Below, in pieces: positions 7,909-56,131 of a DNA stretch of 64,000 nt; within the stretch, counting starts at the first letter, position 1, and the number at the start of each line of letters is the position of its first letter. The position numbers and the translations under genes were made by a program. The notes under the pieces are model-generated. The model searched no databases. It worked only from the letters and a program-made list of their open reading frames with translations, and was not told where the DNA came from. Source of the stretch: Candidatus Gastranaerophilales bacterium (GTDB taxonomy: Bacteria; Cyanobacteriota; Vampirovibrionia; Gastranaerophilales; Gastranaerophilaceae); the NCBI GenBank assembly GCA_905234865.1, contig CAJOJE010000005.1, forward strand, positions 1-64,000, in the 5' to 3' direction.

Positions 7909-7914
7909 AATTTG

Positions 7915-8199: not shown

Positions 8200-8206
8200 A
8201 AATTAA

Positions 8207-27973: not shown

Positions 27974-28762
27974 ATGAAAAAAATTGCGATAATTACTCTG
28001 ACTTATAACAAATTAGAAGAAGCGACAAAGCCTTTTTTGGAGTCGTTATATAAATTTACGGATGAAGAAAATTTTGATTTAATTCTTGTTGAAAACGGGT
28101 CAAAAGACGGCACAAGAGAATATTTGGAAGAATTTAAAAATACAAAATCAAACGTTACTCTTATTGTAAACGATGAAAATTTAGGGTATTCAAAGGGAAA
28201 TAATCAGGGTTTAAGAGAGGTCTTAAATAAAGATTATGATTATATCGGATTATTAAATAACGATATTCTTTTTACTCCGAATTGGCTTTTCGATACGTTA
28301 AAAATTTTCGATTTAAACCCTGAAATCGGAATGATATCTCCGAGAATTCAAAAAAAATGCAATTTTAATTCAAAAAATTATCTTGAACATTATAAAAAAT
28401 ATTTATCAAAATTTAAAGGTGATTATAAACAGGTTTTAGAACCTCTATTTTGTTGCGTTTTAATTAAAAAAGAAGTATTTGATAAAATCGGGCTTTTTGA
28501 TGAAAATTTCACTCCCGCTTTTTTTGAAGATAATGACTTATCTTTTAGGGCGATGTATCAAGGGTATTTGCTTGTTTATTCAAACAGTACTTTTGTATTC
28601 CATAACCATTCGACAACTTCAGGCTCGCTTCCTTCCCAAATTTTTGAAAAAAACAAAGATTATTTTTTCAAAAAACATCCTCTTGCAAGGTGGTGTTTTA
28701 ATCATAGAAGAACAAACCTTATAAAAGACATTAAACGCTATATAAGGGAGAGCTTTGAATGA
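27974..28762 (+). CDS. GT2 family glycosyltransferase (rhamnosyltransferase-like)
   Basis: 262 residues, GT-A fold. IITLTYNKLEEATKPFLESLYKF at the start, ENGSKDGTREYL, GYSKGNNQGLRE (nucleotide-sugar region), LLNNDILFTPNWL (metal-binding DxD equivalent), and FDENFTPAFFEDNDLSFRAMYQGY with the candidate catalytic ED. It is the first gene of the surface-polysaccharide block, only 14 bases after nnrD, so polysaccharide genes are read from the lipid A operon. Sugar and linkage unknown. Confidence 0.88.
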   Translation: MKKIAIITLTYNKLEEATKPFLESLYKFTDEENFDLILVENGSKDGTREYLEEFKNTKSNVTLIVNDENLGYSKGNNQGLREVLNKDYDYIGLLNNDILFTPNWLFDTLKIFDLNPEIGMISPRIQKKCNFNSKNYLEHYKKYLSKFKGDYKQVLEPLFCCVLIKKEVFDKIGLFDENFTPAFFEDNDLSFRAMYQGYLLVYSNSTFVFHNHSTTSGSLPSQIFEKNKDYFFKKHPLARWCFNHRRTNLIKDIKRYIRESFE

Positions 28763-29757
28763 AACTTTTTGAAAAAGTTTGTGTTGATGAAAAAACAAGG
28801 ATAATCAGAGTTTTTAATCTTCCTTTTGAGTATAAAAAAAGCGTTGATGAAAAAAATAATATTTTATACGATGTAAAAGTATTAAATTTCAAATTTTCAA
28901 TAACAAAAAAAAGAAAGAAAAAAAATAAAAAATTTGTGCAAAATACTTGTTCTGATAAAATCATTAAAACCGACTCTTTAATTTATGCAAGATGTATAAG
29001 AAATCTCTTTGAAAAAGTCGACAACATAGAAACGATGTGTATAGGTTCTTCAACCGCAAGGTGTGGTTTTATTGAAGATGAAATAAGCGTGAATATGGGA
29101 ATTGACGCACAGGATTTATATTATTCTTATCAAATTTTAAAAAAATATATAACGGTTATTCCGAATTTAAAAAATATTGTCTTGTATTGGGATGTTTTTT
29201 CTTCGGGCAACGATTTGGACAGACACCCTGAAAAACACAGAAGGGCTTTTTATAAAGTATTTTATGATATTCCGTACAGAAATTCTCTTTGTGCTTATAA
29301 AGATAATTCCGTTGCTTTAGAAAAAAAGATACGATATTTTATGAAACATACCCTAAAAGCGCTTAAAGATGTTCCGAAAGACTATTCACCCCCTTTAAGC
29401 GGAGGGCTTTATACAAAAGAAGAAATGGTTCTTTGGGCGGAAAACGAACTCAAACTTTATAAAAGAAATCAGTTTTTGCATTATTTGAAATTTATAATTA
29501 AAGAGTGCAAAAATTCAAACTTAAATTTATTTATCGTAACTATGCCAAGAAACCCTGTCGTAAAACAATGTTACCCAAACTCAAGCGAATTATTTTCAAG
29601 TTTATACGATATAATAAAAATAAATCCCGAAGTTAAAATAATAAATGCGTTTGATGAAATTGAATTTAAAGAAACCGATTTTGCCGATTTATTACATTTA
29701 AAATATTCGGGCGCAAAACTTTTAACCGATTATGTTAAATCTTTTTATACAAAATAA
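28759..29757 (+). CDS. SGNH/GDSL-like protein of polysaccharide locus, putative
   Basis: 332 residues. After an N-terminal tag with the basic-hydrophobic repeats RIIRVFNLPFEYKK and KVLNFKFSITKKRKKK comes a domain with CIGSSTARCGF, a possible block I Ser, and near the C-terminus DFADLLHLKYSGAKLLTDYV, where the D-x2-H pair resembles block V of SGNH hydrolases as in DltD/AlgX-like enzymes. If so, it may add or remove acyl groups on the polysaccharide. Homology is not certain. It overlaps the preceding gene by 4 bases. Confidence 0.5.
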   Translation: MKLFEKVCVDEKTRIIRVFNLPFEYKKSVDEKNNILYDVKVLNFKFSITKKRKKKNKKFVQNTCSDKIIKTDSLIYARCIRNLFEKVDNIETMCIGSSTARCGFIEDEISVNMGIDAQDLYYSYQILKKYITVIPNLKNIVLYWDVFSSGNDLDRHPEKHRRAFYKVFYDIPYRNSLCAYKDNSVALEKKIRYFMKHTLKALKDVPKDYSPPLSGGLYTKEEMVLWAENELKLYKRNQFLHYLKFIIKECKNSNLNLFIVTMPRNPVVKQCYPNSSELFSSLYDIIKINPEVKIINAFDEIEFKETDFADLLHLKYSGAKLLTDYVKSFYTK

Positions 29758-29778
29758 CCGAAAGAGAGCATGCGAAAA

Positions 29779-30732
29779 ATGATTTATGATTGCATAACTT
29801 TTTTTAACGAACTTGAAATTCTTGAACTGAGATTGAATATTTTAGCCGATTATGTCGACAAATTCGTTATAGTTGAAGCAAATAAAACCCATACGGGGGG
29901 GGATAAAGAATTTATTTTAGAAAAAAACTTTGAAAGATTTGAAAAATTCAAAGATAAAATAACTTACATAAAAATTGAAGAATTTCCCCCCTTAAAAAAA
30001 GATGATGAAGATTCTTTCGGAAATAACTGGCTGTATGAAAACTTTCAGCGTGATGAAATTATGAAAGGGCTTAAAGATTGCAAAAATGACGACATTATTT
30101 TTGTGTCCGATTGCGATGAAATTTGGAATCCCGATGTTTTAAAAGAATATAAAGAGGGAATTTGTTCTCTAAAACTTTATAACTGCTATTATAACTATAA
30201 TACGGTTGATTTATATTCGTTTTATACAAAAAAAGTCAAAGTTTGCAGATACAAAGACTTAATTGACCCAAAACAAGACTTAAAAGGAATAGAATATTGT
30301 GCGCATTCAAAATACGGGCTTCCTACATATTTAAGATTTTGTAAAGGAAAAAACATATACAACGGCGGTTGGCATTTTTCTTACATAAACGATATTAAAA
30401 ATATTATTTTAAAAAGAAAATCAATCGTAGAACAGCAATATAATACTCTTGAAAATATGGACGAAGAAAAAATAAGAGAAAATATTGAAAAAGGACGGGA
30501 TATTTTAGACCATGGCGGAAAATACATAAATATTTCGCCGAAAGGCTTTTTGCCAAAATACATGATTGATAATATCGAAAAATATGAAAAATTCATAAAT
30601 AAAAAAAATAATATCCCAAAATCTCTTGTTTTCATTCCTCTTTTTTGGTCAAAACTATATTCGGACAGAATCTATGATACGGAAAGAGTAATTAAAATTT
30701 TTGGAATAAAATTTAAAATGAGGGTAAAATGA
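29779..30732 (+). CDS. GT17-like glycosyltransferase
   Basis: About 317 residues (ATG 29770 is the alternative start; AAAGAGAG is better spaced for 29779). IYDCITFFNELEILELRLNILADYVDKFVIVEANKTHTG, IFVSDCDEIWNPDVL (metal-binding DxD) and the late block GGWHFSYI are hallmarks of family GT17, whose animal member is MGAT3. Bacterial members sit in LPS and capsule loci. The last residues, RVIKIFGIKFKMRVK, form a short basic-hydrophobic tag seen on other proteins here. Confidence 0.85.
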   Translation: MIYDCITFFNELEILELRLNILADYVDKFVIVEANKTHTGGDKEFILEKNFERFEKFKDKITYIKIEEFPPLKKDDEDSFGNNWLYENFQRDEIMKGLKDCKNDDIIFVSDCDEIWNPDVLKEYKEGICSLKLYNCYYNYNTVDLYSFYTKKVKVCRYKDLIDPKQDLKGIEYCAHSKYGLPTYLRFCKGKNIYNGGWHFSYINDIKNIILKRKSIVEQQYNTLENMDEEKIRENIEKGRDILDHGGKYINISPKGFLPKYMIDNIEKYEKFINKKNNIPKSLVFIPLFWSKLYSDRIYDTERVIKIFGIKFKMRVK

Positions 30733-31526
30733 TTTCAATTATTATTCCGACTTTATTGCAAACGGAAGATATTTTAAAAAAACTTATTTTTGAACTTGTA
30801 AATAATAAACTTGTCGGCGAAGTTATCGTAATTGATAATTCGACAAAAGGTTTCTCGTACAAAAACGAAAAAGTAAGGGTTATAAATTTGGATGAAAATA
30901 TTTTTGTAAACCCTGCTTGGAATTTGGGAGTGAAAGAAGCAAAATTTGATTTTTTGGGAATATTAAATGATGACCTTTTATTGCCTTTAAATTATATTGA
31001 ACAGGTTTATGAATTTATGAAAGATAAAAGGGGGATAGCAGGCTTAGGCGAAGCTAAAATCGTCGATAAAGAAAAAATAAAAAATTACCCTAAAAATTCA
31101 AAATTAAAATTTAAAGAAATAAAAAATTTGGCAAAAGATATTGTTTTAGGGTTTGGAAGCGCCTATTTTTTAAAGAAAGAAGATTATTACTTTATCCCTG
31201 AAGAATTAAAAATTTATTGCGGTGATAATTTTTTAACGGATAAAACTTTAGAAAATAATAAAAAACTTTATTTAATTAAAGGCGCAACGGTTTATCATTG
31301 TCATAGAGCAACAAGCGGAAAAAAAGAATTTAACGAACTATTGTATAAAGACCAAAAAAAATACGAAGAAATTAACCCGAAATATATAGAATTTTGTAAA
31401 GAAAGAAGTAAACCAAATTTTATACAAAATATTTTTTCAATAAAAAATGAAGGTGAATACAAAATTTTAAGAATTTTTTATGTTAAAATAAAATTTAAAA
31501 GAAAGCAAAATAAGAGCAGAGTTTAA
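30729..31526 (+). CDS. GT2-like glycosyltransferase
   Basis: 265 residues; a short GT-A fold with SIIIPTLLQTEDI, VIDNSTKGFSY, VNPAWNLGVKEAK and LGILNDDLLLPLNY (DD metal site). The candidate His-rich acceptor region is KGATVYHCHRATSGKKEF. The C-terminus ends with a tag (YKILRIFYVKIKFKRKQ) like that of the gene before. Overlaps the preceding gene by 4 bases. Confidence 0.8.
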   Translation: MISIIIPTLLQTEDILKKLIFELVNNKLVGEVIVIDNSTKGFSYKNEKVRVINLDENIFVNPAWNLGVKEAKFDFLGILNDDLLLPLNYIEQVYEFMKDKRGIAGLGEAKIVDKEKIKNYPKNSKLKFKEIKNLAKDIVLGFGSAYFLKKEDYYFIPEELKIYCGDNFLTDKTLENNKKLYLIKGATVYHCHRATSGKKEFNELLYKDQKKYEEINPKYIEFCKERSKPNFIQNIFSIKNEGEYKILRIFYVKIKFKRKQNKSRV

Positions 31527-31530
31527 CCTT

Positions 31531-31932
31531 ATGAATTATAAACTTATTAATATGAAAGTGTTCGGAGATGAAAGAGGGAGATTAATTTCACTTGAGGGCG
31601 GAAGAAATTGTCCTTTTGAGATAAAAAGAGTTTATTGGATTTTTGATACCGTACCGAATATGGACAGAGGAATGCATGCGCATAAAAACATGGAACAGAT
31701 TATTGTTGCAATGGACGGGGCATGTCAATTTATATTGGATGACGGCAAAAAAAGGGAAAGCCTTTGGCTAAATCGCCCCGACATCGGACTTTATATCGGA
31801 AAAAACATGTGGAGAGAAATGAAAAATTTTTCATACGGGTGTAAATTAATGGTTTTAGCTTCCGATTATTATGATGAAAGAGAATATATAAGGGATTATA
31901 ACAGGTTTTTGAAAGAAGTAAATAATGACTAA
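31531..31932 (+). CDS. Sugar 3,4-ketoisomerase, FdtA/QdtA (WxcM C-terminal) cupin
   Basis: 133 residues, a single cupin. MKVFGDERGRLISLEGG, IKRVYWIFDTVPNMDRGMHAHKNMEQIIVAMDG and WREMKNFSYGCKLMVLASDYYDEREYIRDY match the FdtA/QdtA/WxcM pattern; the His pair in GMHAHK is the catalytic site. Such enzymes convert dTDP-4-keto-6-deoxyglucose to the 3-keto sugar, the step before amination to Fuc3N or Qui3N. The likely partner aminotransferase is encoded at 44649-45737, 13 kb downstream. RmlA/RmlB, which supply the substrate, are not in the window. Confidence 0.9.
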   Translation: MNYKLINMKVFGDERGRLISLEGGRNCPFEIKRVYWIFDTVPNMDRGMHAHKNMEQIIVAMDGACQFILDDGKKRESLWLNRPDIGLYIGKNMWREMKNFSYGCKLMVLASDYYDEREYIRDYNRFLKEVNND

Positions 31933-32992
31933 AATTTTAATTACGGGTGCAGGCGGTGCGCCGTCTGAAGGGGTTATTAACTCTCTTTTAAAAAGTAAAA
32001 AAGCTGAAGAAATAATCGGAATGGGGTCTGAACCTACCGATTTGGTTTTATCTTGCGCAAAAAGAAAATACCTTGTCCCTTATGCAAATACCAAAGGATA
32101 TAAAAATGCACTCATTTCCGTTTTAAATAAAGAAAAACCCGATTTAATCCATTTTCAAAACGATTTAGAAGTATACCATGCTTCTTTACTGAGGGATGAA
32201 ATCCATAAAACGGGTTGCAAAACATTTATGAGCGAGCATAGCGTAATTGACACCTGTGTTAATAAATGGAAATCATACCTTGCTTTTAAACAGGCGGGCT
32301 TAAAAGTTCCTTTGAATATGCTTTTAAATGATGAAGAAGATTTAAAAGAAGCGTTTAAGAAATTAGCGGACGAAAAGGGTAACGTTTGGTTTAGAGCTTC
32401 ATCCATCGGAGGCGGCGGCAAGGGCTCAATTCCGACTAATGATTATAACCTCGCAAAAAGCTGGATAAATAGAGCAAACGGCTGGGGTGATTTTATTGCG
32501 GCGCAAATGCTTACTCCAAATACAATAACTTGGCTTTCAATTTGGTATGAAGGTGAACTTGTCGTGGCGCAAACAAGAAAAAGAACAGGCTGGGTTCATG
32601 GCAACAGAAGCGCTTCCGGAGTAACCGGAGTTACAAAAGTGGGTGAAACCTGTTCGATAAAAGAGGTTGACGAGATAGCAATTAATACGATTAAAGCCGT
32701 TTCAAACAAACCCCATGGTATCTTTGGCGTTGATATGGCGTATGATAAAAACGGCATTCCAAATCCTACGGAAATAAATATTTCGAGGTTTTTTACAACG
32801 GTTTTATTTTTTACGGAAGCCGGTTTAAATATGCCTGAAATATTTAAAGATATAGCATTATACAATGAATTTCCGAAACTCGATAAAAAAATAAATCCTC
32901 TTCCAAACGGACTTTTGTGGCTTAGGGGAATGGATACAAAGCCAAGGCTTATGAGCGCAGAACAAATGGAAAATGAGGTTATAACCTTGTGA
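31925..32992 (+). CDS. ATP-grasp ligase of polysaccharide locus (copy 1)
   Basis: 355 residues. N-terminal Rossmann-like pre-grasp domain (KILITGAGGAPSEGVINSLL), then an ATP-grasp core with WFRASSIGGGGKGS as the phosphate-binding glycine loop and GVDMAYDKNGIPNPTEIN as the metal-binding strand (Asp, Glu, Asn). It resembles the carbamoyl-phosphate-synthase/PylC-type carboxylate-amine ligases, so it may activate a carboxylate with ATP and attach it to an amine, perhaps of an amino sugar. It is a close paralogue of the protein at 37178-38248. Substrates unknown. Confidence 0.8.
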   Translation: MTKILITGAGGAPSEGVINSLLKSKKAEEIIGMGSEPTDLVLSCAKRKYLVPYANTKGYKNALISVLNKEKPDLIHFQNDLEVYHASLLRDEIHKTGCKTFMSEHSVIDTCVNKWKSYLAFKQAGLKVPLNMLLNDEEDLKEAFKKLADEKGNVWFRASSIGGGGKGSIPTNDYNLAKSWINRANGWGDFIAAQMLTPNTITWLSIWYEGELVVAQTRKRTGWVHGNRSASGVTGVTKVGETCSIKEVDEIAINTIKAVSNKPHGIFGVDMAYDKNGIPNPTEINISRFFTTVLFFTEAGLNMPEIFKDIALYNEFPKLDKKINPLPNGLLWLRGMDTKPRLMSAEQMENEVITL

Positions 32993-33888
32993 ATATCTTA
33001 ATAACAGGTGCCACAGGTTTTATCGGTTGTTCATTTTTAAAATATATAAAAGATAACAGACTTTTTAAAAATGATAAAATAATTCTTCTTACCTCTAAAA
33101 AACTTGAAGAGTACGAGTGTGTTTTGCATAAAAATTACACTTTTGCCAAAAGTGATTTCAAAGACGTTACAATTGATGTAATTTTACATCTGGGCGGTTT
33201 TTCTCCCCATGATAATGAGGCTCAAAATGATGTATTGAAAAATTTATCAAGCATCGTTAATACAAAATATTTATTGGATAATTTGCCGAATATTCCAAAG
33301 AAAATCATATTCTCTTCATCAATTGCCGTATACGACTTTTTGAAAATTAATGAGCCGATAACGGAATTAACTCCTGCATGCGGTATGTCTATGTACGGTT
33401 TATCAAAATTAATGCAGGAAAAAATATTGGAAAGATATTCGACAGAAAATTCGATATCAAGTTCGATTTTAAGATTGGGTGTAATATATGGCGGAAACGT
33501 AGAATATTCTCAACTAATTCCGGTTTTTGCAAAAAACATAATTGATAATAAATCCCTAAAGCTCTTTAACGGAGGGGATAATTTAAAAAACTTCATTTAT
33601 ATTGATGATATTAACAGAATACTTTATAAATGTATTTCTTCTTTTGAAAGCGAAGGCATTGTAAACATTGTGGGAGAAGAAAATGTTGCAATAAAAGATG
33701 TTGCCTCCATGCTCTATAAAATTGCACAAAAAACTCCCGATTTTCAATTTGTAAATTCTGTAATAGGAAAATTTGATTGCGTTTTTGATAATTCAAAAAT
33801 GGTAAAATTGTTTGGAAACAATAAAATAAATTTAGAACAAGGACTGAAACTTGCATATAACACCATTTATAATAAGGAGCAAAAGTAA
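32989..33888 (+). CDS. NAD-dependent sugar epimerase/dehydratase (extended SDR)
   Basis: 299 residues with a GTG start overlapping the previous stop (GTGA). NILITGATGFIGCSFLKYI is the NAD-binding Gly motif, FSSSIAVYDF carries the catalytic Ser, and MYGLSKLMQEKIL holds the YxxxK pair. An epimerase, dehydratase or reductase acting on a nucleotide sugar is expected. It lies between ATP-grasp copy 1 and the acyltransferase, in the module that makes the unusual residue. Confidence 0.87.
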   Translation: MNILITGATGFIGCSFLKYIKDNRLFKNDKIILLTSKKLEEYECVLHKNYTFAKSDFKDVTIDVILHLGGFSPHDNEAQNDVLKNLSSIVNTKYLLDNLPNIPKKIIFSSSIAVYDFLKINEPITELTPACGMSMYGLSKLMQEKILERYSTENSISSSILRLGVIYGGNVEYSQLIPVFAKNIIDNKSLKLFNGGDNLKNFIYIDDINRILYKCISSFESEGIVNIVGEENVAIKDVASMLYKIAQKTPDFQFVNSVIGKFDCVFDNSKMVKLFGNNKINLEQGLKLAYNTIYNKEQK

Positions 33889-34569
33889 ATGGGTATTTTT
33901 AAAAAAATTTTTAAGAAAAAGAAGAAACCCGTATATTCTATTAAAGGGCAAAACAATAAAATTTTCATAATTGAAAACGGAGAAAAAATAGAACTCGAGA
34001 ATGACGTAATTTCGGGGTTGAATATTGAAATTGAAGGTAATAACAATGTTATTACTCTTGAAAAGCCTTTTCGATTTATTGATTCAAGAATTTTAATCTT
34101 GAAAAACGACACTGTTATAAATATCAAAAAAACAAAATATTCAATAGTTAATACATACATTGAATGCATACAGCCAACCGGCGTTCAGATTTTAAATATA
34201 GGCGAAAACGTTTCAATAGGAGGAAGTAAAATCTATATATACGGCAACGGCGCAAAATGCAATATAGGTGTAGATTGTCAATTTTCTGACGGTGTTATTA
34301 TTATGACGGGTGACGGTCATAAAATTACGGATAATATTACGAGCAAAATAATAAATTCGGGAAAAAATACCGTTGAAATAGGTAACCATGTTTGGCTTTC
34401 AAGAAATGTTACGGTTTTAAAAAACGTGGTTATTCCGAACAATTGCGTAATCGGTACGGGAAGTATCGTAACGAAAAGTCCCGAACAAAAAGAAAATTGT
34501 ATTTTGGCAGGAACTCCCGCAAAAATTATAAAAGAAAATATTACTTGGGATAGGGAAGAAAATTTTTAA
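33889..34569 (+). CDS. Hexapeptide-repeat acyltransferase
   Basis: 226 residues. A Lys-rich N-terminus is followed by a left-handed beta-helix with hexapeptide turns (VSIGGSKIYIYGNGAKCNIGVDCQF, VEIGNHVWLSRNVTVLKNVVIPNNCVIGTGSIVTK) and the closing block ILAGTPAKIIKENITW. His in GDGHKIT and GNHVW is the usual catalytic region. Transfer of an acetyl group to a sugar hydroxyl or amine is expected; acetylation of a 3-amino sugar would complete a Fuc3NAc or Qui3NAc pathway (inference). Confidence 0.85.
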   Translation: MGIFKKIFKKKKKPVYSIKGQNNKIFIIENGEKIELENDVISGLNIEIEGNNNVITLEKPFRFIDSRILILKNDTVINIKKTKYSIVNTYIECIQPTGVQILNIGENVSIGGSKIYIYGNGAKCNIGVDCQFSDGVIIMTGDGHKITDNITSKIINSGKNTVEIGNHVWLSRNVTVLKNVVIPNNCVIGTGSIVTKSPEQKENCILAGTPAKIIKENITWDREENF

Positions 34570-34578
34570 GGCAAATGA

Positions 34579-36216
34579 ATGAGAGTCTGTGATTATATTG
34601 CAAAATATTTTAAAAAAATAAACATAGATAAAGTTTTTGGATTTCAAGGAGGCGCAATTACTCCTTTAATTGATTCTATCGCACTTGAAGGAATAAAATA
34701 TTATCAGGCTTGTCATGAGCAGGCGGCGGGGTTTATGGCGGATTCGGTTTCAAGAATAGAAGGCAGGCTGTCTGTCGCTATGGCGACAAATGGTCCCGGA
34801 GTCACAAATTTAATTACATCAATTGCAAATGCTTATCTTGATAATGCACCTGTTTTATTTATAACGGGACAAGTAGCAACTGCCGATATCAAAACCGATA
34901 ATATTCGCCAAAACGGTTTTCAGGAGGTTGATACCGTAAAAATAGCACAGTCTGTTACAAAATACGCAGCTTTAGTAAAAAACACGAATGATGTTTTGTA
35001 CGAGCTTCAAAAAGCGGTATATATCACAAAAGAAGGAAGATGCGGTGCGGTTTTATTGGATTTTCCGCTTGATATTTTAATGAGCGAAATTGATATTGAA
35101 AAACAAAGGGAATTTATACCCGATATAAAAATAAAAAATGATTTCAAAATTGATGAAACACTTGAACTTTTAAAAAAATCAAAGCGCCCCGTTGCACTGA
35201 TTGGAGGCGGAGTAAGACAAGCAGGCGCAATTAAAGAAGTAAATGAATTTATTTCAAAAACCTCAATTCCGACGGTTTCAACTCTTATGGGAAAAGATAC
35301 GGTGTTTGGAAATTCTGCGGGTTTTTCAGGGTTATACGGCTTAACGGGCGCTAATTTAGCAATTTATAATTCTGATTTATTGATTGTGTTCGGTTCAAGA
35401 TTATCAAAAAGGCAATTTGGAAAAAATATTGAAAATTATGCTCCAAGTGCCAAAATAATTCAGATTGATACAGATAAAAGCGAATGTAATCATGTTGTAA
35501 AATCTGACATTTTTATTAATTGTGATATAAAAGAATTTCTATCAAACTTAAATAAAAATAATCTTCCCGTATGCCCGACGGAATGGATAGAAAAAATTAA
35601 AGAATATAAAGAAAAATACAAAAACGATATTTATGTAAATCATGATAACGATCCGATTAAAATAATCGAAAAAATAAGTTCAATTGCCCTAAATAACGCA
35701 ATTATAACGACCGATGTCGGACAAAATCAAATGTGGTGCGCCCAAGGCTGGAAAATTAAAAAGGGACAAAGATTTTTAACTTCAGGCGGTTTAGGCTGCA
35801 TGGGATTTTCGCTTCCTGCGGCAATCGGGGCTTCAATAGTATCAAATGCTCAAATTATTGCATTTACGGGTGACGGCGGATTTCAGATGAATTTGCAGGA
35901 ATTGCAGACTATTAAAACCTATGATTTAAATGTAAAAATCGTAATTTTTAACAATAATTCTTTGGGAATGATACAAGAAAACCAGTATAAATACCTAAAT
36001 TCCCGCTACATCGGAACAAAAGAAGGATATTATTGCCCGGATATTAAAAAAATAGCATTTGCTTATGATATCAATTATTATAATGAAAATAAAATTACGG
36101 ATTTTTTAGCCGACAATGAGGCTTCTATACTTGAAATAAAATTAAAACAAGAACCGACAAGGCTTCTTATTAAATATGATAAAAAAAATGTGTATGATGA
36201 AGAAAAAATATTTTAA
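34579..36216 (+). CDS. Acetolactate-synthase-like TPP enzyme (copy 1)
   Basis: 545 residues with three domains of the ALS/pyruvate-oxidase family. The N-domain has the TPP-activating Glu47 in ACHEQAAGFMADS and ATNGPGVTNLITSIANAYLDNAPVLFITGQ. The middle domain resembles the family's FAD or nucleotide-binding domain (LIVFGSRLSKRQFG). The C-domain holds TGDGGFQMNLQELQTIK...IFNNNS, the TPP/Mg motif. True ALS is unlikely because two copies lie within a polysaccharide locus. Known relatives in such loci include YerE, which adds a two-carbon unit from pyruvate to a keto-sugar; that is the best model, not proof. Confidence 0.82.
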   Translation: MRVCDYIAKYFKKINIDKVFGFQGGAITPLIDSIALEGIKYYQACHEQAAGFMADSVSRIEGRLSVAMATNGPGVTNLITSIANAYLDNAPVLFITGQVATADIKTDNIRQNGFQEVDTVKIAQSVTKYAALVKNTNDVLYELQKAVYITKEGRCGAVLLDFPLDILMSEIDIEKQREFIPDIKIKNDFKIDETLELLKKSKRPVALIGGGVRQAGAIKEVNEFISKTSIPTVSTLMGKDTVFGNSAGFSGLYGLTGANLAIYNSDLLIVFGSRLSKRQFGKNIENYAPSAKIIQIDTDKSECNHVVKSDIFINCDIKEFLSNLNKNNLPVCPTEWIEKIKEYKEKYKNDIYVNHDNDPIKIIEKISSIALNNAIITTDVGQNQMWCAQGWKIKKGQRFLTSGGLGCMGFSLPAAIGASIVSNAQIIAFTGDGGFQMNLQELQTIKTYDLNVKIVIFNNNSLGMIQENQYKYLNSRYIGTKEGYYCPDIKKIAFAYDINYYNENKITDFLADNEASILEIKLKQEPTRLLIKYDKKNVYDEEKIF

Positions 36217-36261
36217 TTATTTTATGTTAGAATTAACTAAAGCAATTTGAGGAATTTACGG

Positions 36262-37185
36262 ATGAAATGGATTAAAAAAGGTTTTCTTTGTGATTGTAAT
36301 ACTTTTGACCTTGATTGGTACAAAAAAAATACAATGACGCCCCTGCCTTATTTAAAAGGAGATGTTTTAAGAATTTACCTTACGATGTGTGATAGTGAAA
36401 ATCAAGGAAGAGTGGGTTACATAGATTTAAACCCGAATAATCCTTCCGAGATTTTGGGTTTTTCCGATACTCCCGCACTGGATTTAGGGGAGGTTGGGAC
36501 TTTTGATGAAAACGGGGTTTTGCCGACATCATTATTAGAAGAAAACGGAAAATTATACCTTTATTATTCAGCTTATCAAAAGCAGGTTTCAATTCCTTAT
36601 ACGATTTATTCCGGGTTAGCTGTGAGTGAAGATTATGGTGATAGCTTTAAAAGAGTTTCAAATGCGCCTATATTGGATAGAATTAATAACGAACTTCATC
36701 AGCGCTCCGCTATTGAAGTTATGAAAAAAGACGGGCATTATAAAATGTGGTATACGGCAAACGTCGGCTGGATTGATAACGGAATTCATCTTGCGCCAAA
36801 GTATGACATAAAATATTTAGAATCAAATTCAATCGATAAATGGTATGATATTCCAAAACCCTCTTTAGAATTAAAAGGGGATGAATACGGGCTTACAATG
36901 CCTCAAGTTTTCTTTGAAGACGATAAATATAAAATGATTTATTCGATAAGAAGCATTTCAAAAGGATACCGCTTGGGGTATGCCGAATCAATTGACGGCA
37001 TAAAATTTATCCGCATGGATGAAAAAATGGAAATTGACGTATCAAAAGAGGGGTTTGACTCTGAAATGATATGCTTTGGAAAAACTTTTAAATATAAAAA
37101 TAAAATTTACTTATTCTATTGCGGAAATCATTACGGCATAGGCGGTTTGGGGTATGCTGAATTAGAAGGAGAAAAAATTGGCTAA
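36262..37185 (+). CDS. Five-bladed beta-propeller (GH43/GH32-like) protein
   Basis: 307 residues from ATG 36262, with GAGG nine bases upstream; a TTG at 36247 is less likely. Repeated propeller-blade patterns: KLYLYYSAYQ, SGLAVSEDYGDSFKRVSNAPIL, HYKMWYTANVGW, KYKMIYSIRSISKGYRLGYAESIDGI, KIYLFYCGNHYGIGGLGYAE. There is no signal peptide, so it acts in the cytoplasm, which makes a catabolic glycosidase unlikely. Similar proteins appear in O-antigen and capsule loci with unknown roles. It sits directly ahead of the second ATP-grasp/TPP pair and overlaps it by 8 bases. Confidence 0.7.
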   Translation: MKWIKKGFLCDCNTFDLDWYKKNTMTPLPYLKGDVLRIYLTMCDSENQGRVGYIDLNPNNPSEILGFSDTPALDLGEVGTFDENGVLPTSLLEENGKLYLYYSAYQKQVSIPYTIYSGLAVSEDYGDSFKRVSNAPILDRINNELHQRSAIEVMKKDGHYKMWYTANVGWIDNGIHLAPKYDIKYLESNSIDKWYDIPKPSLELKGDEYGLTMPQVFFEDDKYKMIYSIRSISKGYRLGYAESIDGIKFIRMDEKMEIDVSKEGFDSEMICFGKTFKYKNKIYLFYCGNHYGIGGLGYAELEGEKIG

Positions 37186-38248
37186 AATTTTATTAACGGG
37201 GGCAGGAAGCGCACAGGCAACGGGAGTTGCAAATTGCTTATCAATGGATAAAAGCGAAAAAAACGAAATAATAGGAGCAAGCTGTGATAAGTATGATTTA
37301 ATGCTCTCTCGTTTTGACAGAAAATATCTCCTCCCTCATTCAACATCAAAAGAGTATGAAGAAAAATTGTTAAATTGCTTGAAAATCGAAAAGCCCGATA
37401 TGATTCATTTTCAACATGACAGAGAACTATATTCCGCAAGTAGATTCAGAGAAAAAATCGAAAATTTGGGAGTAAAAATGCTTATTCCCGATAACGAAAC
37501 AATTGATACCTGCGTTCATAAATATAAATCGTGGAAAAAATTTAAAGCGTACGGAATTAAAGTGCCCGAAAATATTATTATAAATGATGAAACCGATTTA
37601 AAAAGAGCTTTTGAAGAATTGGGCGGCAAAAAAGGTACGATTTGGCTTCGTGCAATGTCAATCGGAGGCGGAGGAAAGGGCTCATTACCCGTTAGTGATT
37701 ATGAAACGGCTTACGATTGGATAAATAATGCAAACGGCTGGTGCGATTTTGTGGCGGCCGAATTATTGACCAAAGAAACAGTAACTTGGCTGTCTTTATG
37801 GTATAAAGGCGAACTTATCGCAGCGCAAGGGAGAAAAAGAGCGGGCTGGGCACATAGTGCTTTAGCTCCGTCAGGAGTAACGGGAGTTACGAGAATAGGC
37901 ATTACATATTCAAACCCCCTTGTTGATGAAATCGGGAAAAAAGCATGCCTTGCCGTAAGCGAATGCCCAAACGGGGTGTATGGCGTAGATATGACTTATG
38001 ATGATAACGGAATACCAAACCCGACCGAAATTAATATCGGAAGATTTTTTACGACGGTTGAATTTTTTGCTCAAGGAGGGCTTAATTTACCCGTTATTTT
38101 AAAAGATTTATGTTTATATGATAAAAAACCGGACGGTGCACCCTTTATTAACCCTTTGCAAGACGGGTTATTATGGATTAGGGGAATGGACACTAAACCC
38201 TTGCTTACGACGGAAGAAAATATTAATTCGGAGATAAAAGAAATATGA
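37178..38248 (+). CDS. ATP-grasp ligase of polysaccharide locus (copy 2)
   Basis: 356 residues, TTG start (LAKILLTGAGSAQATGV). It aligns along its whole length with the copy at 31925-32992: CVHKYKSWKKFKAYGIKVPENI, WLRAMSIGGGGKGSLP, NGWCDFVAAELLT, SGVTGVTRIG, YGVDMTYDDNGIPNPTEINIGRFFTTVEFF, GLLWIRGMDTKP. All ATP-grasp motifs are kept, so both copies look active. Divergence between copies is mostly in the substrate-facing N-terminal third. Overlaps the TPP gene by 4 bases. Confidence 0.8.
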   Translation: MAKILLTGAGSAQATGVANCLSMDKSEKNEIIGASCDKYDLMLSRFDRKYLLPHSTSKEYEEKLLNCLKIEKPDMIHFQHDRELYSASRFREKIENLGVKMLIPDNETIDTCVHKYKSWKKFKAYGIKVPENIIINDETDLKRAFEELGGKKGTIWLRAMSIGGGGKGSLPVSDYETAYDWINNANGWCDFVAAELLTKETVTWLSLWYKGELIAAQGRKRAGWAHSALAPSGVTGVTRIGITYSNPLVDEIGKKACLAVSECPNGVYGVDMTYDDNGIPNPTEINIGRFFTTVEFFAQGGLNLPVILKDLCLYDKKPDGAPFINPLQDGLLWIRGMDTKPLLTTEENINSEIKEI

Positions 38249-39891
38249 TAACCGTTGCAAAATACATTGCAAAATTTCTTATATCAAAAGATGTAAAGCA
38301 TATATTCGGTTTTCAGGGTTCTGCCATGTTGAAAATTTTGGATGAAGCGGCAAGTCTTGGTATTAACTATATCCAAAATTTTAATGAGCAGGCTTCGGGC
38401 TTTGCGGCAGACGCTTATGCAAGAGTAAATAAAAAATTGGGCGTTGCAATTGCAACTTCAGGCCCCGGTGCCGTTAATTTAATCGGCGGAATTGCAAATG
38501 CTTATCAAGATTCAATACCCGTTTTATTTATAACGGGTCAAGACTATTTAACCTCTCTTAAAAATGATAACGGCGCAAGACAAAACGGTTTTCAGGATTT
38601 AGACATTGTAAGTGCGGTTAAAAATTTAACAAAATATGCGGTTTTATTGGATGACCCGAATAATGTAAAGTATGAACTTGAAAAAGCATATTATCTTGCA
38701 ACAAACGGAAGATGCGGTTCCGTTTTAATTGATGTTCCGATTGATGTTCAATTTATGGAGGTGGATGAAAACAATTTAAAAGGGTTTGAAATTCCAAAAA
38801 AAGAAGAATTTGACTATAAAATAAATGATGTTATTAAACTTTTAAAAAATTCTAAACGTCCCGTCATTTTAGCAGGAGGCGGAATACAGACTTCATGTGC
38901 TAAAGAAGAATTAAAAGAACTTAACCTAAAAACAAAAATCCCCGTTGTTACAACTCTTATGGGGGGTGATTGTTTTGAAGATAAATTGGGCTTTTCGGGG
39001 TTACACGGAAACAGTGTTTCAAACCTTGCAATTTTAAAAGCGGATTTAATTTTAGCGCTCGGCACAAGATTATCCATAAAACAAACGGGAAAAATTAAAG
39101 AAAATTATACAAATGCAAATATTGTTCACGTTGATATCGATAAAACGGAATTAAAAAGAACTTTTTTAAATGAAACTTTATCGATTAAAGGAGATGTTAA
39201 GGAATTTTTAAATAAAATAAATAAGGAAAATTTCTCGATTAATATTGAAAATTGGCTTAGTTTAATTGAAGAATGGAAAAATAAATTTGAAGATACGATT
39301 TGTGATAAAAATTCAAAGTTAGACCCCGTTATTTTTTTAAGAGAAATAACAAAATATATTAAAGATGATACGGTAATAACAACCGATGTCGGCGCAAATC
39401 AAATGTGGACAAATCAGGCGCTAAGATTAAAAAATAATCAAAGACTTTTAAATTCAGGCGGTTTTGGCGCTATGGGATATTCTTTACCTGCCGCAATAGG
39501 AGCGTCATACGTTGCACCACTTTGCGTTTCAATAACGGGTGATGGCGGATTGCAGATGAATTTGCAGGAATTAAATACTTTATCTTTAAGAAGAAATAAC
39601 GTAAAATGTTTTGTTTTTAACAATAACAATTTAGCGCTTATGAGGGATTGTCAAAAAAGATATTACAATTCTCATTTTTGGGGAAATAACGAAAAAGAAT
39701 TTACATGTCCCGATATTAAAAAATTAGCGGATACCTTTAATTTAAAATATGAAAAAATTGAAGATAAAGACGATTTTTCAAAATTAAAAGATATTTTTTC
39801 AAATAACGAACCATATTTAATTGATGTTATTTTAGATAAAGATACAAAACTTTTAAACAGATATGATGATAAGGCGCTAAAAAATGAGTAA
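38245..39891 (+). CDS. Acetolactate-synthase-like TPP enzyme (copy 2)
   Basis: 548 residues, paralogue of 34579-36216. The activating Glu48 sits in FNEQASGFAADAYAR (Asn-Glu here, against His-Glu in copy 1), followed by ATSGPGAVNLIGGIANAYQDSIPVLFITGQ. The C-domain has TGDGGLQMNLQELNTLSL...FNNNN. It shares LLDDPNNVKYELEKAYYLATNGRCGSVLIDVPIDVQ with the same region of copy 1. The change next to the catalytic Glu suggests a different acceptor. It overlaps the ATP-grasp gene upstream and the HAD gene downstream (8 bases). Confidence 0.82.
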   Translation: MITVAKYIAKFLISKDVKHIFGFQGSAMLKILDEAASLGINYIQNFNEQASGFAADAYARVNKKLGVAIATSGPGAVNLIGGIANAYQDSIPVLFITGQDYLTSLKNDNGARQNGFQDLDIVSAVKNLTKYAVLLDDPNNVKYELEKAYYLATNGRCGSVLIDVPIDVQFMEVDENNLKGFEIPKKEEFDYKINDVIKLLKNSKRPVILAGGGIQTSCAKEELKELNLKTKIPVVTTLMGGDCFEDKLGFSGLHGNSVSNLAILKADLILALGTRLSIKQTGKIKENYTNANIVHVDIDKTELKRTFLNETLSIKGDVKEFLNKINKENFSINIENWLSLIEEWKNKFEDTICDKNSKLDPVIFLREITKYIKDDTVITTDVGANQMWTNQALRLKNNQRLLNSGGFGAMGYSLPAAIGASYVAPLCVSITGDGGLQMNLQELNTLSLRRNNVKCFVFNNNNLALMRDCQKRYYNSHFWGNNEKEFTCPDIKKLADTFNLKYEKIEDKDDFSKLKDIFSNNEPYLIDVILDKDTKLLNRYDDKALKNE

Positions 39892-40504
39892 CATATTCTT
39901 TGATTTGGACGGAACCCTGATTAATTCGGAACACAGGCTGTATAACCTTTTTGTTGAACTGTGTCCGAACTGTAATATGACTTATGAAGAATATTGGAAA
40001 ATAAAAAGACAAAGATATACACAAAAGAATTTTTTGAAAAAATATTTTAATTTTACCGATATTGAATGTGAAAATTTTCACAAAACCTACCTTTTAAAAG
40101 TGGAAGAGGAAAAAAGACTTGAAGAGGACTTTTTAAAAGAAGGAGTTATTGAGGTTCTTCAAAAGCTTTATAAAAAGTATGATTTATACGTTGTTACAAA
40201 TCGCCAATCAAAAGAATTAACCCTGAAAGAATTAGAAAAATTCAATATTAAACAATATTTTAAAGATATTTTAGTGACCGAACAAAAAATAACAAAAGTT
40301 GATTTAATTAAAAAAAATGTTCAAATTTCTCATATTGATGTTATGATTGGTGATACGGGCGAAGATATCAAATGCGCTAAAGCACTTGGTATTAAATCAA
40401 TAGCAATAAGCTGGGGCGTTTTAAATAAAGAAATTTTAAAAGAATACTCCCCAAACGGTATTATAGATGAGGTTATGGAACTTGAAAACCATATTATACA
40501 ATAG
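39884..40504 (+). CDS. HAD-superfamily phosphatase
   Basis: 206 residues. FFDLDGTLINSEHRL is motif I with the nucleophile Asp; VVTNRQSKELT is motif II; a Lys in KVDLIKKN is motif III; MIGDTGEDIKCAKALGIKSIAISWG is motif IV. Phosphoglycolate-phosphatase-like, with a helical cap after motif I. In this operon it probably dephosphorylates a small intermediate, perhaps the acid used by the ATP-grasp enzyme, which is inference from order only. The next gene begins inside its 3' end. Confidence 0.87.
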   Translation: MSNIFFDLDGTLINSEHRLYNLFVELCPNCNMTYEEYWKIKRQRYTQKNFLKKYFNFTDIECENFHKTYLLKVEEEKRLEEDFLKEGVIEVLQKLYKKYDLYVVTNRQSKELTLKELEKFNIKQYFKDILVTEQKITKVDLIKKNVQISHIDVMIGDTGEDIKCAKALGIKSIAISWGVLNKEILKEYSPNGIIDEVMELENHIIQ

Positions 40505-41417
40505 CGAATTTAAAAATATTTGGGATGAATTTGTTGATAATTCCAAAAACGGAACGTTTATGTTGAAACGTGATTATATGGATTATCATTCAGACAGGTT
40601 TAAAGATTTTTCTTTAATGTTTTATGAAGATGAAAAATTAATTGCAATTATGCCAAATTCAATTCATAACGATGAAATTCGCTCCCATGGCGGTTTAACA
40701 TACGGCGGAATCGTCACAAACAGAAAAATGACCGCCCGGAAAATGCTTGATTTATTTTCTTCGATGAAAGAATTTTTAAAAGAAAACGGAATTAAAAAAG
40801 TTATTTACAAAGCAATTCCCTCTTTTTATCATCTTTATCCGTCCGATGAAGATATGTATGCTTTATTTAGAAATAATGCAAAATTAATAAGACGTGATAT
40901 TTCAACCACAATTTTAATGGAAGATAAAATTAAATTTTCCGATTTAAGAAGAAGAGGAGCGAAAAAAGCCTTAAAAAACGGTTTAGAAGTTAAAACAAGC
41001 GAAGATTGGGAAGAATATATCAATCTGTTGGCAAAAGTTCTTGAAGAACACCATGGTACAAAGCCCGTCCATAGCGCAGATGAAATTAAAAAACTGGCAG
41101 ATAATTTCCCGAATAATATTAAACTTTATTGCGCTTATGATAAAGAAAACAAAATGTATGCGGGCGTCGTAATTTTTGATACAAAACAAACGGCGCATGC
41201 TCAATATATTGCAAACTCTAACGAAGGCAGGGAAATCGGCGCACTTGATTTAGTTTTTGATTATTTAATTAATCAAGAATATAAAGATAAAAAGTTTTTT
41301 GATTTCGGTATTTCAAATGAACATGGCGGTTTAATCTTAAATAACGGACTTATAAGCCAAAAAGAAGGTTTTGGCGGTAGGGGCGTAGTTTATGATTTTT
41401 ATGAAATGGAGATTTAA
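40482..41417 (+). CDS. FemAB/GNAT-like acyl or aminoacyl transferase
   Basis: About 311 residues from a TTG at 40482 preceded by GAGG (40469-40472, nine bases); an ATG at 40467 gives a 316-residue form. KNIWDEFVDNSKNGTFMLKRDYMDYHSDRF at the start, SHGGLTYGGIV in the middle, a second acyltransferase half (KLYCAYDKENKMYAGVVIFDTKQTAHAQYIANSNEGREIGALDLVFDYLI) and FFDFGISNEHGG at the end. This double-GNAT layout is that of FemAB-like proteins found in polysaccharide loci. It probably adds an acyl or aminoacyl group to a sugar. It overlaps the HAD gene by 23 bases. Confidence 0.75.
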   Translation: MKTILYNSEFKNIWDEFVDNSKNGTFMLKRDYMDYHSDRFKDFSLMFYEDEKLIAIMPNSIHNDEIRSHGGLTYGGIVTNRKMTARKMLDLFSSMKEFLKENGIKKVIYKAIPSFYHLYPSDEDMYALFRNNAKLIRRDISTTILMEDKIKFSDLRRRGAKKALKNGLEVKTSEDWEEYINLLAKVLEEHHGTKPVHSADEIKKLADNFPNNIKLYCAYDKENKMYAGVVIFDTKQTAHAQYIANSNEGREIGALDLVFDYLINQEYKDKKFFDFGISNEHGGLILNNGLISQKEGFGGRGVVYDFYEMEI

Positions 41418-41419
41418 AA

Positions 41420-42685
41420 ATGGCAAAAGTTTTGGTTATGGCATACGGGAATTTTCGTTATTTTTCCCCCGTTTCGCTTGAACCTTATATTCAAATGTTC
41501 ATTAATTCTTTGGTTAGAAACGGTAATACCGTTATGCCTTATATTGAAAAAGACATTCAATCGGATAAAAAATTCAAAAACTATAAAAATCATTACATAG
41601 CATACCGTAACGTTAAAGATTTTAACCCCGATATTGTTTTTACATTTAACAACCTTATGGATGAGAGGCTTTTAAAAAAACTCGATGTTCCCTTTTATGT
41701 AATGGACGCCGATACTCCTCTTTATTGGATGAATAAAGAATTAATCAAAAAATACAATGAAAAATATTTTGCTCTCATTTTGAATACGGAAATTTCCGAT
41801 TTATTGAAAAAAGATTTCAATTTGAATGAAGAAAAACAAATTTTTATTCCCTATACAACTGATATCAGAGCAAAAAACATCGACCAAAATAAAGACATAA
41901 CTTTTATAGGTAATTTTATTCAATCACAATGGGATTCTATTAGTTGTAGTATTTTTAATTCAAAAACAAATATGTTGGAAAAAGAAAATATAATGAGAAA
42001 AGTTGTTTTTGAAATCAAAGATAATTTCAAATTAACAAATGAAACTTACGAAGAATATAAGAAGGCTTTTCAAAACCATGCCATGAGTAAAAATTCCCTT
42101 GAAGCGACAATTGGCATGGTACATACAAATTATATAAGAAATTCTCTTTTAAATAGTTTGGTTGATTTAGACTTAAATATTTATTCAACTTCATACAGTT
42201 TAAGCTGTATTGATTATAACTATAAACTTTATTCAAAATGCCACTATAATACGGTAAGTACGGTTGAAGAAAACGAAAAAGTTTATAACGAATCAAAAAT
42301 TTCTCTTTCCTTTCCTCATCACCAAACAAAAACGGGCTTTTCATGGAGAGTATGCGACATTTTGGCGACAAATTCCATGCTCATTTCAAATAAAACCGAA
42401 AAATTAACTCAATTTTTCGGCGATAATGTCGTAACTTTTAAAGATGAAAAAGATTTAAAAGATAAATGTCTTTATTATTTAAACCATGAGGACGAAAGAA
42501 AAGACATAGTTCAAAAATGCCAAGAGATAATTAATAAAAATCACAGATTTGAAAATTTATTTAAAGTTTTTGAGGAAAAAACGGGTTATTCTCTTATAAA
42601 TAGTGATATTAAAGGACAAATCATAAATACGACAAGAACTCAAAAAATTTTGGATAAATATAACCGAAAAAATAAGCCCGTCTGA
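41420..42685 (+). CDS. CgeB-like glycosyltransferase (copy 1)
   Basis: 421 residues, GT-B fold. The N-domain has VLVMAYGNFRYFSPV and FTFNNLMDERLLKKLDVPFYVMDADTPLYW. The C-terminal donor domain has VYNESKISLSFPHHQTKTGFSWRVCDILATNSMLISNKTEKL and the closing YYLNHEDERKDIVQKCQEIINKNHRFENLF, as in the CgeB/DUF3880 group. Sugar unknown. It is a paralogue of the gene at 43178. The N-terminal half may also hold a second, unassigned segment (about residues 190-270). Confidence 0.8.
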   Translation: MAKVLVMAYGNFRYFSPVSLEPYIQMFINSLVRNGNTVMPYIEKDIQSDKKFKNYKNHYIAYRNVKDFNPDIVFTFNNLMDERLLKKLDVPFYVMDADTPLYWMNKELIKKYNEKYFALILNTEISDLLKKDFNLNEEKQIFIPYTTDIRAKNIDQNKDITFIGNFIQSQWDSISCSIFNSKTNMLEKENIMRKVVFEIKDNFKLTNETYEEYKKAFQNHAMSKNSLEATIGMVHTNYIRNSLLNSLVDLDLNIYSTSYSLSCIDYNYKLYSKCHYNTVSTVEENEKVYNESKISLSFPHHQTKTGFSWRVCDILATNSMLISNKTEKLTQFFGDNVVTFKDEKDLKDKCLYYLNHEDERKDIVQKCQEIINKNHRFENLFKVFEEKTGYSLINSDIKGQIINTTRTQKILDKYNRKNKPV

Positions 42686-43177: not shown

Positions 43178-44536
43178 GTGTCAAAAGTAGTTTTTGTTTC
43201 ATACTCTAATGTAAGTTTTTTAAAAACTCTAAGCCAAGACGGGTTTATAGACGGTTTTGCAAATGCCTTGGCAAGATTAGGCAATGAAGTTTGCTGCTTT
43301 TTAACAAACAGGGTTTTTATAAAGGAAATTGAATCAAACATAATAAATGCAAAGCCTGATGTCATAATTGCTTTCAATAACTCGGGAATTACGGAAAACG
43401 TAATAAAAAATACAAATTGCCCGATATTGTGCTTCGGGTCGGATTCCGTTTCTTTTTGGGCAAAAAGCGATTTAATCGAAAAATATTTTTCAAGATATTA
43501 TTTTTTGCACCATTCGACTGATACATATAGTCAGGCAAAAGAAATATTTAAAAATTTTCCCGAAGATAAAAATTTTATGTTCTCCCATGCGACAGACCTT
43601 AGAAAAATTGATATCGAACAGGATATCCCAATTTCTTTTGTAGGGTCTATCGGTAACTGGGATAAATCGGGCGTTGAATATTTTAAAAGAATGAGCAAGG
43701 CCGTTGAATTTTTGCCTGAAAAATATCCTTATAATATGAATGAAATTAAGGCAAAATATATAAGCCATATAAATGATATATTAAATAACCCTTTAACGGT
43801 TATAAAGGAAGAACTTCCCTTATGGAGAAAATTTGCTTCCGTTCCGTATAAACAAAGCCTGATTACAAATGTTATATGTTTAAAAAGATTTTCCGTTTTA
43901 AGGGAATTGGAAGATTTAAGCATTAAAATTTTTTCATACCCTGAAGCAATGGTTGATGTCTTAACTTATGATATTAATTTGTTTAATTCCTTTGATTTTA
44001 CCACCTCAACCACATTAGAAGATAATACCATAACCTATAACCGTTCAAAAATCTCTTTGAATTTACCCCATGCCCATGCGCAAAACGGTTTTTCTTGGAG
44101 AGTGTGCGAAGTTATGGCATCAAATGCTTTTTTATTGTCTGATTACAGACCCGATTTAGATAGGCTTATGAAACCTTATTTTAAAGATTTTCCGATGTAT
44201 CACAATTCAAAAGAAGCGTATGAACTTGCAAAAAAAATCCTGAAAGACGATAAATACAGGCTCGATTTGGTGGAAGCCTCAAATAAAGCGATAGAAGAAA
44301 ATTGTCGCTTTGAACCGAGAATTAAACAAATCGAAGAATTGATAAAAGTAAAACTTGTTTATGATGATAAAAAACAAGGGTCGGTCGATAGGAACTCTTA
44401 TCTTTCTTTAAAATTGTCGGATAGAGAATATCAAAACATACAAAAATCTTCTAAAAAGATTTCTTTTGTAAATAAGATAAGATATCAAATATGGTGTAAA
44501 CTGACAGAAAAACTTACGAAAAAGAAAATAATATAA
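43178..44536 (+). CDS. CgeB-like glycosyltransferase (copy 2)
   Basis: 452 residues with a GTG start and no good Shine-Dalgarno. Same fold as the gene at 41420: VVFVSYSNVSFLKTLSQDGFIDGFANALARLG, IIAFNNSGITENVIKNTNCPILCFGSDSVSFW, ITYNRSKISLNLPHAHAQNGFSWRVCEVMASNAFLLSDYRPDL. The FSWRVC block is shared with copy 1. It is separated from copy 1 by the degenerate stretch and probably has its own transcript. The C-terminal 60 residues are Lys-rich. Confidence 0.8.
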   Translation: MSKVVFVSYSNVSFLKTLSQDGFIDGFANALARLGNEVCCFLTNRVFIKEIESNIINAKPDVIIAFNNSGITENVIKNTNCPILCFGSDSVSFWAKSDLIEKYFSRYYFLHHSTDTYSQAKEIFKNFPEDKNFMFSHATDLRKIDIEQDIPISFVGSIGNWDKSGVEYFKRMSKAVEFLPEKYPYNMNEIKAKYISHINDILNNPLTVIKEELPLWRKFASVPYKQSLITNVICLKRFSVLRELEDLSIKIFSYPEAMVDVLTYDINLFNSFDFTTSTTLEDNTITYNRSKISLNLPHAHAQNGFSWRVCEVMASNAFLLSDYRPDLDRLMKPYFKDFPMYHNSKEAYELAKKILKDDKYRLDLVEASNKAIEENCRFEPRIKQIEELIKVKLVYDDKKQGSVDRNSYLSLKLSDREYQNIQKSSKKISFVNKIRYQIWCKLTEKLTKKKII

Positions 44537-55911: not shown

Positions 55912-55944
55912 ACTTACCAACTTTCTTTAAATATACAAGAAATT

Positions 55945-56017: not shown

Positions 56018-56131
56018 AAATAATATTTAATTTTAAATTGTTTATCAAATCGTCAAACCAAACAGCTGACCTAATCAGAATACCAAGAACAAAATTTTCA
56101 GTCAATAGTTTTTTATAATTTTTTTTCAAAA

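Follow-up and report, generated by a model that had tools for sequence, protein, structure and literature searches.

A glycan locus of a Candidatus Gastranaerophilales bacterium that may join two cassettes for the N-acylation of amino sugars

We examined a 64,000-nt window (positions 1 to 64,000, forward strand, of contig CAJOJE010000005.1) from a Candidatus Gastranaerophilales bacterium, whose draft genome comprises 1.87 Mb in 22 contigs, with contamination put at 1.73%. The window holds a glycan locus containing two pairs of genes, each consisting of an ATP-grasp ligase and an acetolactate synthase (ALS)-like, thiamine diphosphate (ThDP)-dependent enzyme, here designated ATPg1/TPP1 and ATPg2/TPP2 (TPP, thiamine pyrophosphate). 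A preliminary description of this DNA had placed the pairs at 31925/34579 and 37178/38245, with a short-chain dehydrogenase/reductase (SDR), a hexapeptide protein and a propeller between them and a haloacid dehalogenase (HAD) phosphatase and a FemAB-like transferase behind. The four open reading frames (ORFs) are there, full length and intact, and the identities given to the other five are borne out.

The region, entirely on the + strand, opens with a gene for an FdtA-type dTDP-4-keto-6-deoxyhexose 3,4-ketoisomerase (31531-31932; Pfam FdtA, 177 bits), the 3' end of which overlaps by 8 nt the start of ATPg1 (31925-32992; 355 aa, PRK12767-type ATP-grasp). There follow an extended SDR of the epimerase/reductase family (32989-33888; Pfam Epimerase, 88.8 bits), a hexapeptide acyltransferase-like gene (33889-34569) that barely exceeds the Pfam Hexapep cut-off and has WbbJ as its best NCBIfam match, TPP1 (34579-36216; 545 aa) and PROP (36247-37185), a five-bladed propeller with a fold like those of glycoside hydrolase families GH43, GH32 and GH130, whose likelier start is the ATG at 36262, where the family match begins. 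Behind PROP lie ATPg2 (37178-38248; 356 aa), TPP2 (38245-39891; 548 aa), the HAD gene (39884-40504; Pfam HAD_2, 77 bits) and a FemAB/GNAT-like transferase gene (40467-41417; Pfam Acetyltransf_6, with a weak NCBIfam match to FemAB-XrtA). From FdtA (31531) to the first downstream glycosyltransferase (41420), neighbouring genes overlap or are separated by no more than 30 nt, and both pairs sit in one tight operon. A DegT/FdtB-like sugar 3-aminotransferase (44649-45737; Pfam DegT, 390 bits) is encoded further downstream. FdtA, DegT and the glycosyltransferases that flank the region had gone unmentioned in the preliminary description.

TPP1 and TPP2 share 44% identity over 551 columns; each contains three TPP domains well over the Pfam cut-offs, the catalytic Glu and the GDG...NN cofactor motif. 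For both, 5ahk ranks first among solved structures (324 bits for TPP1, 279 bits for TPP2); it is labelled 'acetolactate synthase II' in the PDB, and we tentatively take it to be PpYerE, the ketone-accepting YerE of Pseudomonas protegens. The numbering supports this identity: V479, a variant site of PpYerE (PMC12247030), corresponds to residue 499 of the 5ahk chain, and the match to that chain begins at its residue 21. A six-residue insert, beside a motif that usually reads RQxGFQ, is common to 5ahk, TPP1, TPP2 and the remaining TPPs of the loci, and is missing from acetohydroxyacid synthase (AHAS), Gcl and PoxB. Nearly all the enzymes with the insert also carry DVGxNQMW and GDGG, where AHAS has H at the N of the former and GDGS for the latter. 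In the tree, the locus TPPs and 5ahk form one group of 17 rows (support 92/94), and a topology setting the locus TPPs beside AHAS and away from 5ahk was rejected (p=0.007). From their sequences, then, TPP1 and TPP2 belong to a YerE-like group of polysaccharide-locus enzymes, apart from AHAS. They differ from 5ahk, the putative PpYerE, in showing only 33-38% identity to it and in being linked to a 3-amino-sugar pathway and ATP-grasp ligases, not to the CDP-3,6-dideoxyhexose pathway. As a separate observation, the Campylobacter phage records MG065691 (88771-90405) and MG065686, 174 kb, contain an ALS-like ORF 31% identical to TPP2, which could be phage-borne or host contamination.

ATPg1 and ATPg2 are 54% identical over 353 aa and were the only ATP-grasp matches in the genome at E<=0.001, indicating that their doubling is not a chance similarity. 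Both fall within the ATP-grasp superfamily by their fold matches, a conserved glycine-rich loop of the GGGGKGS type and the metal-site motif NPTEIN-R. The best family for both is PRK12767 ('carbamoyl phosphate synthase-like'), to which the nearest solved fold, 2pn1, belongs, but their scores (83.6 and 71.2 bits) are far under its curated cut-off of 218; by sequence they are a distinct, well-conserved subfamily apart from the curated PRK12767. A structure model of ATPg2 (pLDDT 87.5) has 2pn1, L-amino-acid ligases and PylC among its closest folds. The subfamily is rare. Within the class it was seen in 4 of 382 genomes; among those sampled from the classes of a Legionella and a Bacteroidia carrier it occurred in 1 of 321 and 2 of 345, respectively, and in one family that has a Lachnospiraceae carrier in 4 of 397. 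A search for carriage of the ATP-grasp genes on plasmids or phages gave no match.

We mapped 22 ATP-grasp loci (numbered below with the prefix L) from among the matches listed, in a partial sampling of genomes. They split into type A (15 loci), with the order FdtA-ATPg-SDR-(TPP)-HAD-DegT and variations upon it, and type B (7 loci), with the order PROP-ATPg-TPP-HAD-FEMAB and with FdtA and DegT near. Two of the seven type-B loci hold ATPg and HAD only; the five full ones have FdtA, and their PROP proteins are 49-70% identical. An SDR gene lies beside the ATP-grasp or one gene beyond it in 13 of the 15 type-A loci, and beside it in no type-B locus. Conversely, PROP and the FemAB-like gene are confined to type B, the latter being present in five of the seven loci. 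The hexapeptide gene at 33889, an extra of the window's cassette A, lacks conservation among type-A loci. Cultivable bacteria with a single cassette include Pelosinus fermentans JBW45 (type A, no TPP) and Zwartia vadi IMCC34845 (type B).

The window combines the two types. Its ATPg1, TPP1, FdtA and DegT grouped in trees with type A, and its ATPg2, TPP2 and HAD with type B; the SDR belongs to the former set, PROP and the FemAB-like gene to the latter. ATPg1 is 81-85% identical to the ATP-grasps of the type-A loci L009-L011. TPP1 clusters with L010, L011 and L014, FdtA with L009-L011 and L014, and DegT with L009-L011. ATPg2, 75% identical to its homologue in L057, clusters with this and other type-B loci (SH-aLRT 100); TPP2 clusters with L057, L033, L020, L021 and L023 (support 100/99), and the HAD is 64% identical to that of L057. 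A forced sisterhood of TPP1 and TPP2 was rejected (approximately unbiased test, p-AU 7e-6), which, with the trees, rules out the tandem duplication of one module. Thus, of the two full-length paralogous modules proposed in the preliminary description, the integrity of both is upheld but not their doubling in place, since these are two separately travelling cassettes. Related genomes hold pure type B (L057, genome G364) and pure type A (L009-L011), the other genomes with the ATP-grasp have a single copy each among the matches listed, and only this genome, among those searched, has both cassettes together. Cassette B looks as if it had been inserted where A would have had its own HAD, so that the two cassettes have a single HAD, FdtA and DegT between them.

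The pairing of ATP-grasp and TPP genes in other genomes, proposed as a check in the preliminary description, was observed in 11 of the 22 loci; the ATP-grasp has its obligate partner instead in the HAD, which accompanies it in all 22, across Bacillota, Bacteroidota, Pseudomonadota, Myxococcota and Gastranaerophilales. The slot adjoining this constant pair, which would make the acid, varies: it contains an ALS-like TPP, a split transketolase, a DRE-TIM protein plus TPP, or nothing. In L009, the split transketolase (11974-13724; N-terminal and pyrimidine/C-terminal subunits) replaces the TPP between SDR and HAD, and in L024 and L061 a DRE-TIM/HMGL-like protein stands alongside the TPP, beside the ATP-grasp. 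Such variation is as expected if the slot builds different carbon skeletons.

The sugar acted upon can be predicted from the neighbouring genes. The best solved matches of FdtA are 5tpu, 7n67 and the FdtA structure 2pa7, all characterised 3,4-ketoisomerases, and those of DegT are 7n63, WlaRG (5u1z) and QdtB (3frk). RmlB (495 bits, over the cut-off) is encoded with an adjoining RmlA-like ORF on another contig. All four pathway members, RmlA, RmlB, 3,4-ketoisomerase and 3-aminotransferase, are therefore in the genome, which by this evidence can make a dTDP-3-amino-3,6-dideoxyhexose, either Fuc3N or Qui3N. The ketoisomerase and the QdtB/WlaRG-like aminotransferase resemble those of the FdtA/FdtB/FdtC and QdtA/B/C pathways to dTDP-Fuc3NAc and dTDP-Qui3NAc; unlike these, the cassettes have an ATP-grasp instead of a conserved N-acetyltransferase of the FdtC/QdtC type; the WbbJ-like hexapeptide gene at 33889, not conserved in type A, might encode one.

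The function of the variable slot is suggested by sister loci. A search of the class with the propeller only, using no ATP-grasp or TPP query, found the propeller in 25 of 335 genomes, from which 20 loci were mapped. Its partners are a DegT homologue (15 of 21 loci, including L065 of the window genome) and WbqC or FEMAB, mostly with no TPP, and the propeller was accordingly rejected as a TPP-specific partner. L112 and L116 have the FdtA/DegT/PROP/FEMAB frame of type B, but with a β-ketoacyl-acyl carrier protein synthase III (KAS III) and a PglD-like hexapeptide acyltransferase in the slot (FdtA-KAS3-PglDhex-PROP-FEMAB-DegT in L116). Among 26 PROP loci, 11 have a PglD-type hexapeptide gene, seven an ATP-grasp and none both (Fisher p=0.01, in a test that ignores relatedness). 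In the viosamine island of P. syringae, KAS III, a hexapeptide acyltransferase and an aminotransferase make and attach a hydroxybutyryl group, with genetic support (PMC3927599). Since an N-acylation set of this kind fills the same slot in L112, L116 and L124, we read ATPg-TPP-HAD as doing the same job by other chemistry. By this analogy, the simplest reading is that ThDP carboligation would replace the Claisen condensation, and ATP-driven amide formation the acyl transfer. The island (VioA, VioS KAS III, VioB, VioR and acyl carrier protein, ACP) and the cassettes would thus share an aminotransferase, an acyl maker and an acyl attacher; the acyl group is carried on ACP and moved by a hexapeptide transferase in the former, and a ThDP enzyme and an ATP-grasp occupy those places in the latter.

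Several further arrangements were seen in these loci. A third related cassette of the window genome, L065 (G000:C1:10001-30000, at about 7743-14297, - strand), encodes a DesI-like aminotransferase, GT2, WbqC, PROP, TPP and a divergent PRK12767-type ATP-grasp, and probably repeats the theme with a 4-amino sugar. In L066 (G000:C1:244001-264000; 6875-12219), a TPP gene in two ORFs, a probable frameshift, has as neighbours a HAD gene, the gene of a 539-aa HMGL/DRE-TIM protein and two cytidylyltransferase-like genes; its pairing with HMGL resembles that beside the ATP-grasp in L024 and L061. The propeller has a recurrent companion, about 250-275 aa long and unmatched in Pfam, at L112:10820 and L113:7214 and just upstream of PROP in L020 and L021, in loci of both the KAS III/hexapeptide and the ATP-grasp types. 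Three loci of one family (L126, L127 and L128) have tandem propeller genes beside WbqC.

From the gene identities, the two cassette lineages, the YerE-like motifs, the 3-amino-sugar genes and the exchange of the slot, we infer the reactions, their order, the identity of the acid and the sharing of the HAD as follows. The locus would be a hybrid operon of two amino-sugar N-acylation cassettes, each making a branched acid that the ATP-grasp links as an amide to the amino sugar, a reading that we favour with a little better than even confidence. RmlA/RmlB, FdtA and DegT would make the dTDP-3-amino-3,6-dideoxyhexose. In each cassette, the YerE-like enzyme would decarboxylate pyruvate or another 2-oxo acid and transfer the resulting acyl anion to a carbonyl compound, this ThDP-dependent C-C bond formation yielding a branched hydroxy(-keto) acid. 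The ATP-grasp would then activate the carboxylate with ATP and couple it to the sugar amine. The HAD might dephosphorylate either the coupled product or some intermediate, its substrate being a guess; the SDR of type A would reduce or epimerise; and PROP and the FemAB-like transferase of type B might, again as a guess, finish or transfer the acyl sugar. With B having entered at the position of A's HAD, the remaining HAD probably serves both cassettes, and the glycan would have two differently acylated residues, which fits the earlier proposal of two modules for two related residues. The Qui3N of a Plesiomonas O-polysaccharide is amide-linked to a methyl-branched tertiary-alcohol acid (PMC3210612), making an acid of this sort an attractive candidate, on grounds of chemical plausibility only. 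The fuller proposal, of a thioester-free N-acyl route joining a ThDP acid maker to ATP-grasp coupling on dTDP-3-amino-3,6-dideoxyhexose, with two such cassettes in one locus and two acyl sugars in one glycan, is more tentative, and we put it somewhat short of an even chance.

Some observations weigh against this N-acylation reading. The fold of ATPg2 is just as near the carboxylating enzymes PurK and biotin carboxylase as the ligases, so that fold alone is not decisive. The TPP is absent from about 10 loci with ATP-grasp and HAD, and its product therefore cannot be their sole substrate. An FdtA/DegT homologue is missing from the sequence examined of L012 and L022, both near contig ends, and of L015 and L032. 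The hexapeptide gene at 33889 could on its own account for the acylation of one residue. Finally, relatedness was ignored in the Fisher test, and some of its PROP loci had come from searches with a gene that was itself under test.

The main rival is the direct C-branching of the sugar, in which TPP1 and TPP2 would add an acetyl or longer branch to the ketone of a dTDP-4-keto- or 3-keto-6-deoxyhexose, the SDR would reduce the branch, and the ATP-grasp and HAD would serve another residue. It draws on 5ahk as the closest solved structure of both TPPs, with a shared insert and motifs, on the 3-keto sugar produced by FdtA and on the SDR that stands beside the TPP in type A; the split transketolase of L009 fits too, such enzymes having been proposed to branch keto sugars (PMC12247030). 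However, most loci have the DegT aminotransferase, which consumes the keto group made by FdtA, just as the DesI-like enzyme of L065, a 4-aminotransferase, would consume a 4-ketone, and we saw no 3-dehydrase (DdhC-type) gene in the locus. The invariant ATP-grasp/HAD pair and the swap with KAS III/hexapeptide would also be left unexplained, and we consider C-branching unlikely. The preliminary description had offered a carbon-branched or an acyl-amide sugar; the acyl amide is the better reading, and the YerE-branched sugar is less favoured because sister loci have a KAS III/hexapeptide N-acylation set at the corresponding place.

Alternatively, the ATP-grasp might join a phosphorylated amino alcohol to a uronic acid, with subsequent dephosphorylation by the HAD, to give a uronamide of the type found in the C. 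jejuni HS:2 capsule. The HS:2 pathway reportedly has a HAD phosphatase as well, and ATP-grasp and HAD genes go together in 22 of 22 loci. The HS:2 locus encodes the ATP-grasp amidoligase domain Cj1438C (PMC11800379), but this is TupA-like, by name another ATP-grasp group, and acts on uronic acid with no ThDP enzyme. We recognised no uronate-forming gene in the cassettes, FdtA overlaps ATPg1, and TPP and SDR would have no explained role, all of which makes a uronamide improbable here.

That TPP1 and TPP2 are ordinary acetolactate synthases retained in the locus for metabolic reasons is highly improbable: their top NCBIfam match is indeed the acetolactate synthase large subunit (TIGR00118; 448 and 437 bits), but both miss its cut-off of 538, and elsewhere the genome has a normal IlvB of its own, next to which an IlvN-type small subunit is encoded, with no AHAS regulatory small subunit in the glycan locus. 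These results, with the YerE-like insert, the missing AHAS pattern and the rejected AHAS grouping, rule out a housekeeping ALS and agree with the earlier view of the enzymes. An assembly artefact fusing the loci of two strains is conceivable in a contaminated 22-contig draft, but is equally far-fetched for a tightly packed region interior to one 103.7-kb contig with an even G+C of 0.28-0.36.

The glycan locus begins right after lptC-lptA-lpxI-lpxB and three further housekeeping genes, and glycosyltransferases recognised by Pfam flank the ATP-grasp/TPP region on both sides. Upstream lie GT2 (27974-28762), a protein with no Pfam match (28759-29757), GT17 (29770-30732) and a second GT2 (30729-31526); downstream are two Glyco_trans_1_2 glycosyltransferases (41420-42685 and 43178-44536), a homologue of the second of which adjoins PROP in L033, all on the + strand. 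Two neighbouring ORFs lie 3' of DegT (45854-47342), the first with no family match and the second a DUF1796 protein (putative papain-like). An ochre-suppressor tRNA called by ARAGORN at 55944-56018 on the - strand (anticodon tta) was dismissed as a register error, the Rfam alignment giving UUU (Lys).

In open-access papers, our search turned up no earlier description of ALS combined with ATP-grasp in the loci of O-antigen, capsule or flagellin. What is new is the proposed logic of the cassette, in which an N-acylation slot would hold a ThDP acid maker and an ATP-grasp coupler, and also the joining of two cassettes into one; each type already occurs alone in distant bacteria. Many surface glycans bear amino sugars with odd N-acyl groups of unexplained biosynthesis, such as the dimethyl-hydroxy-oxoproline on Qui3N, and the locus supplies candidate enzymes for them in a YerE-like ThDP enzyme, an ATP-grasp ligase and a HAD, a set portable across phyla and found in the same slot as a known acyl-ACP route. 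If our reading is true, glycan biosynthesis would gain new ThDP carboligases and a ligase that forms amides with ATP.

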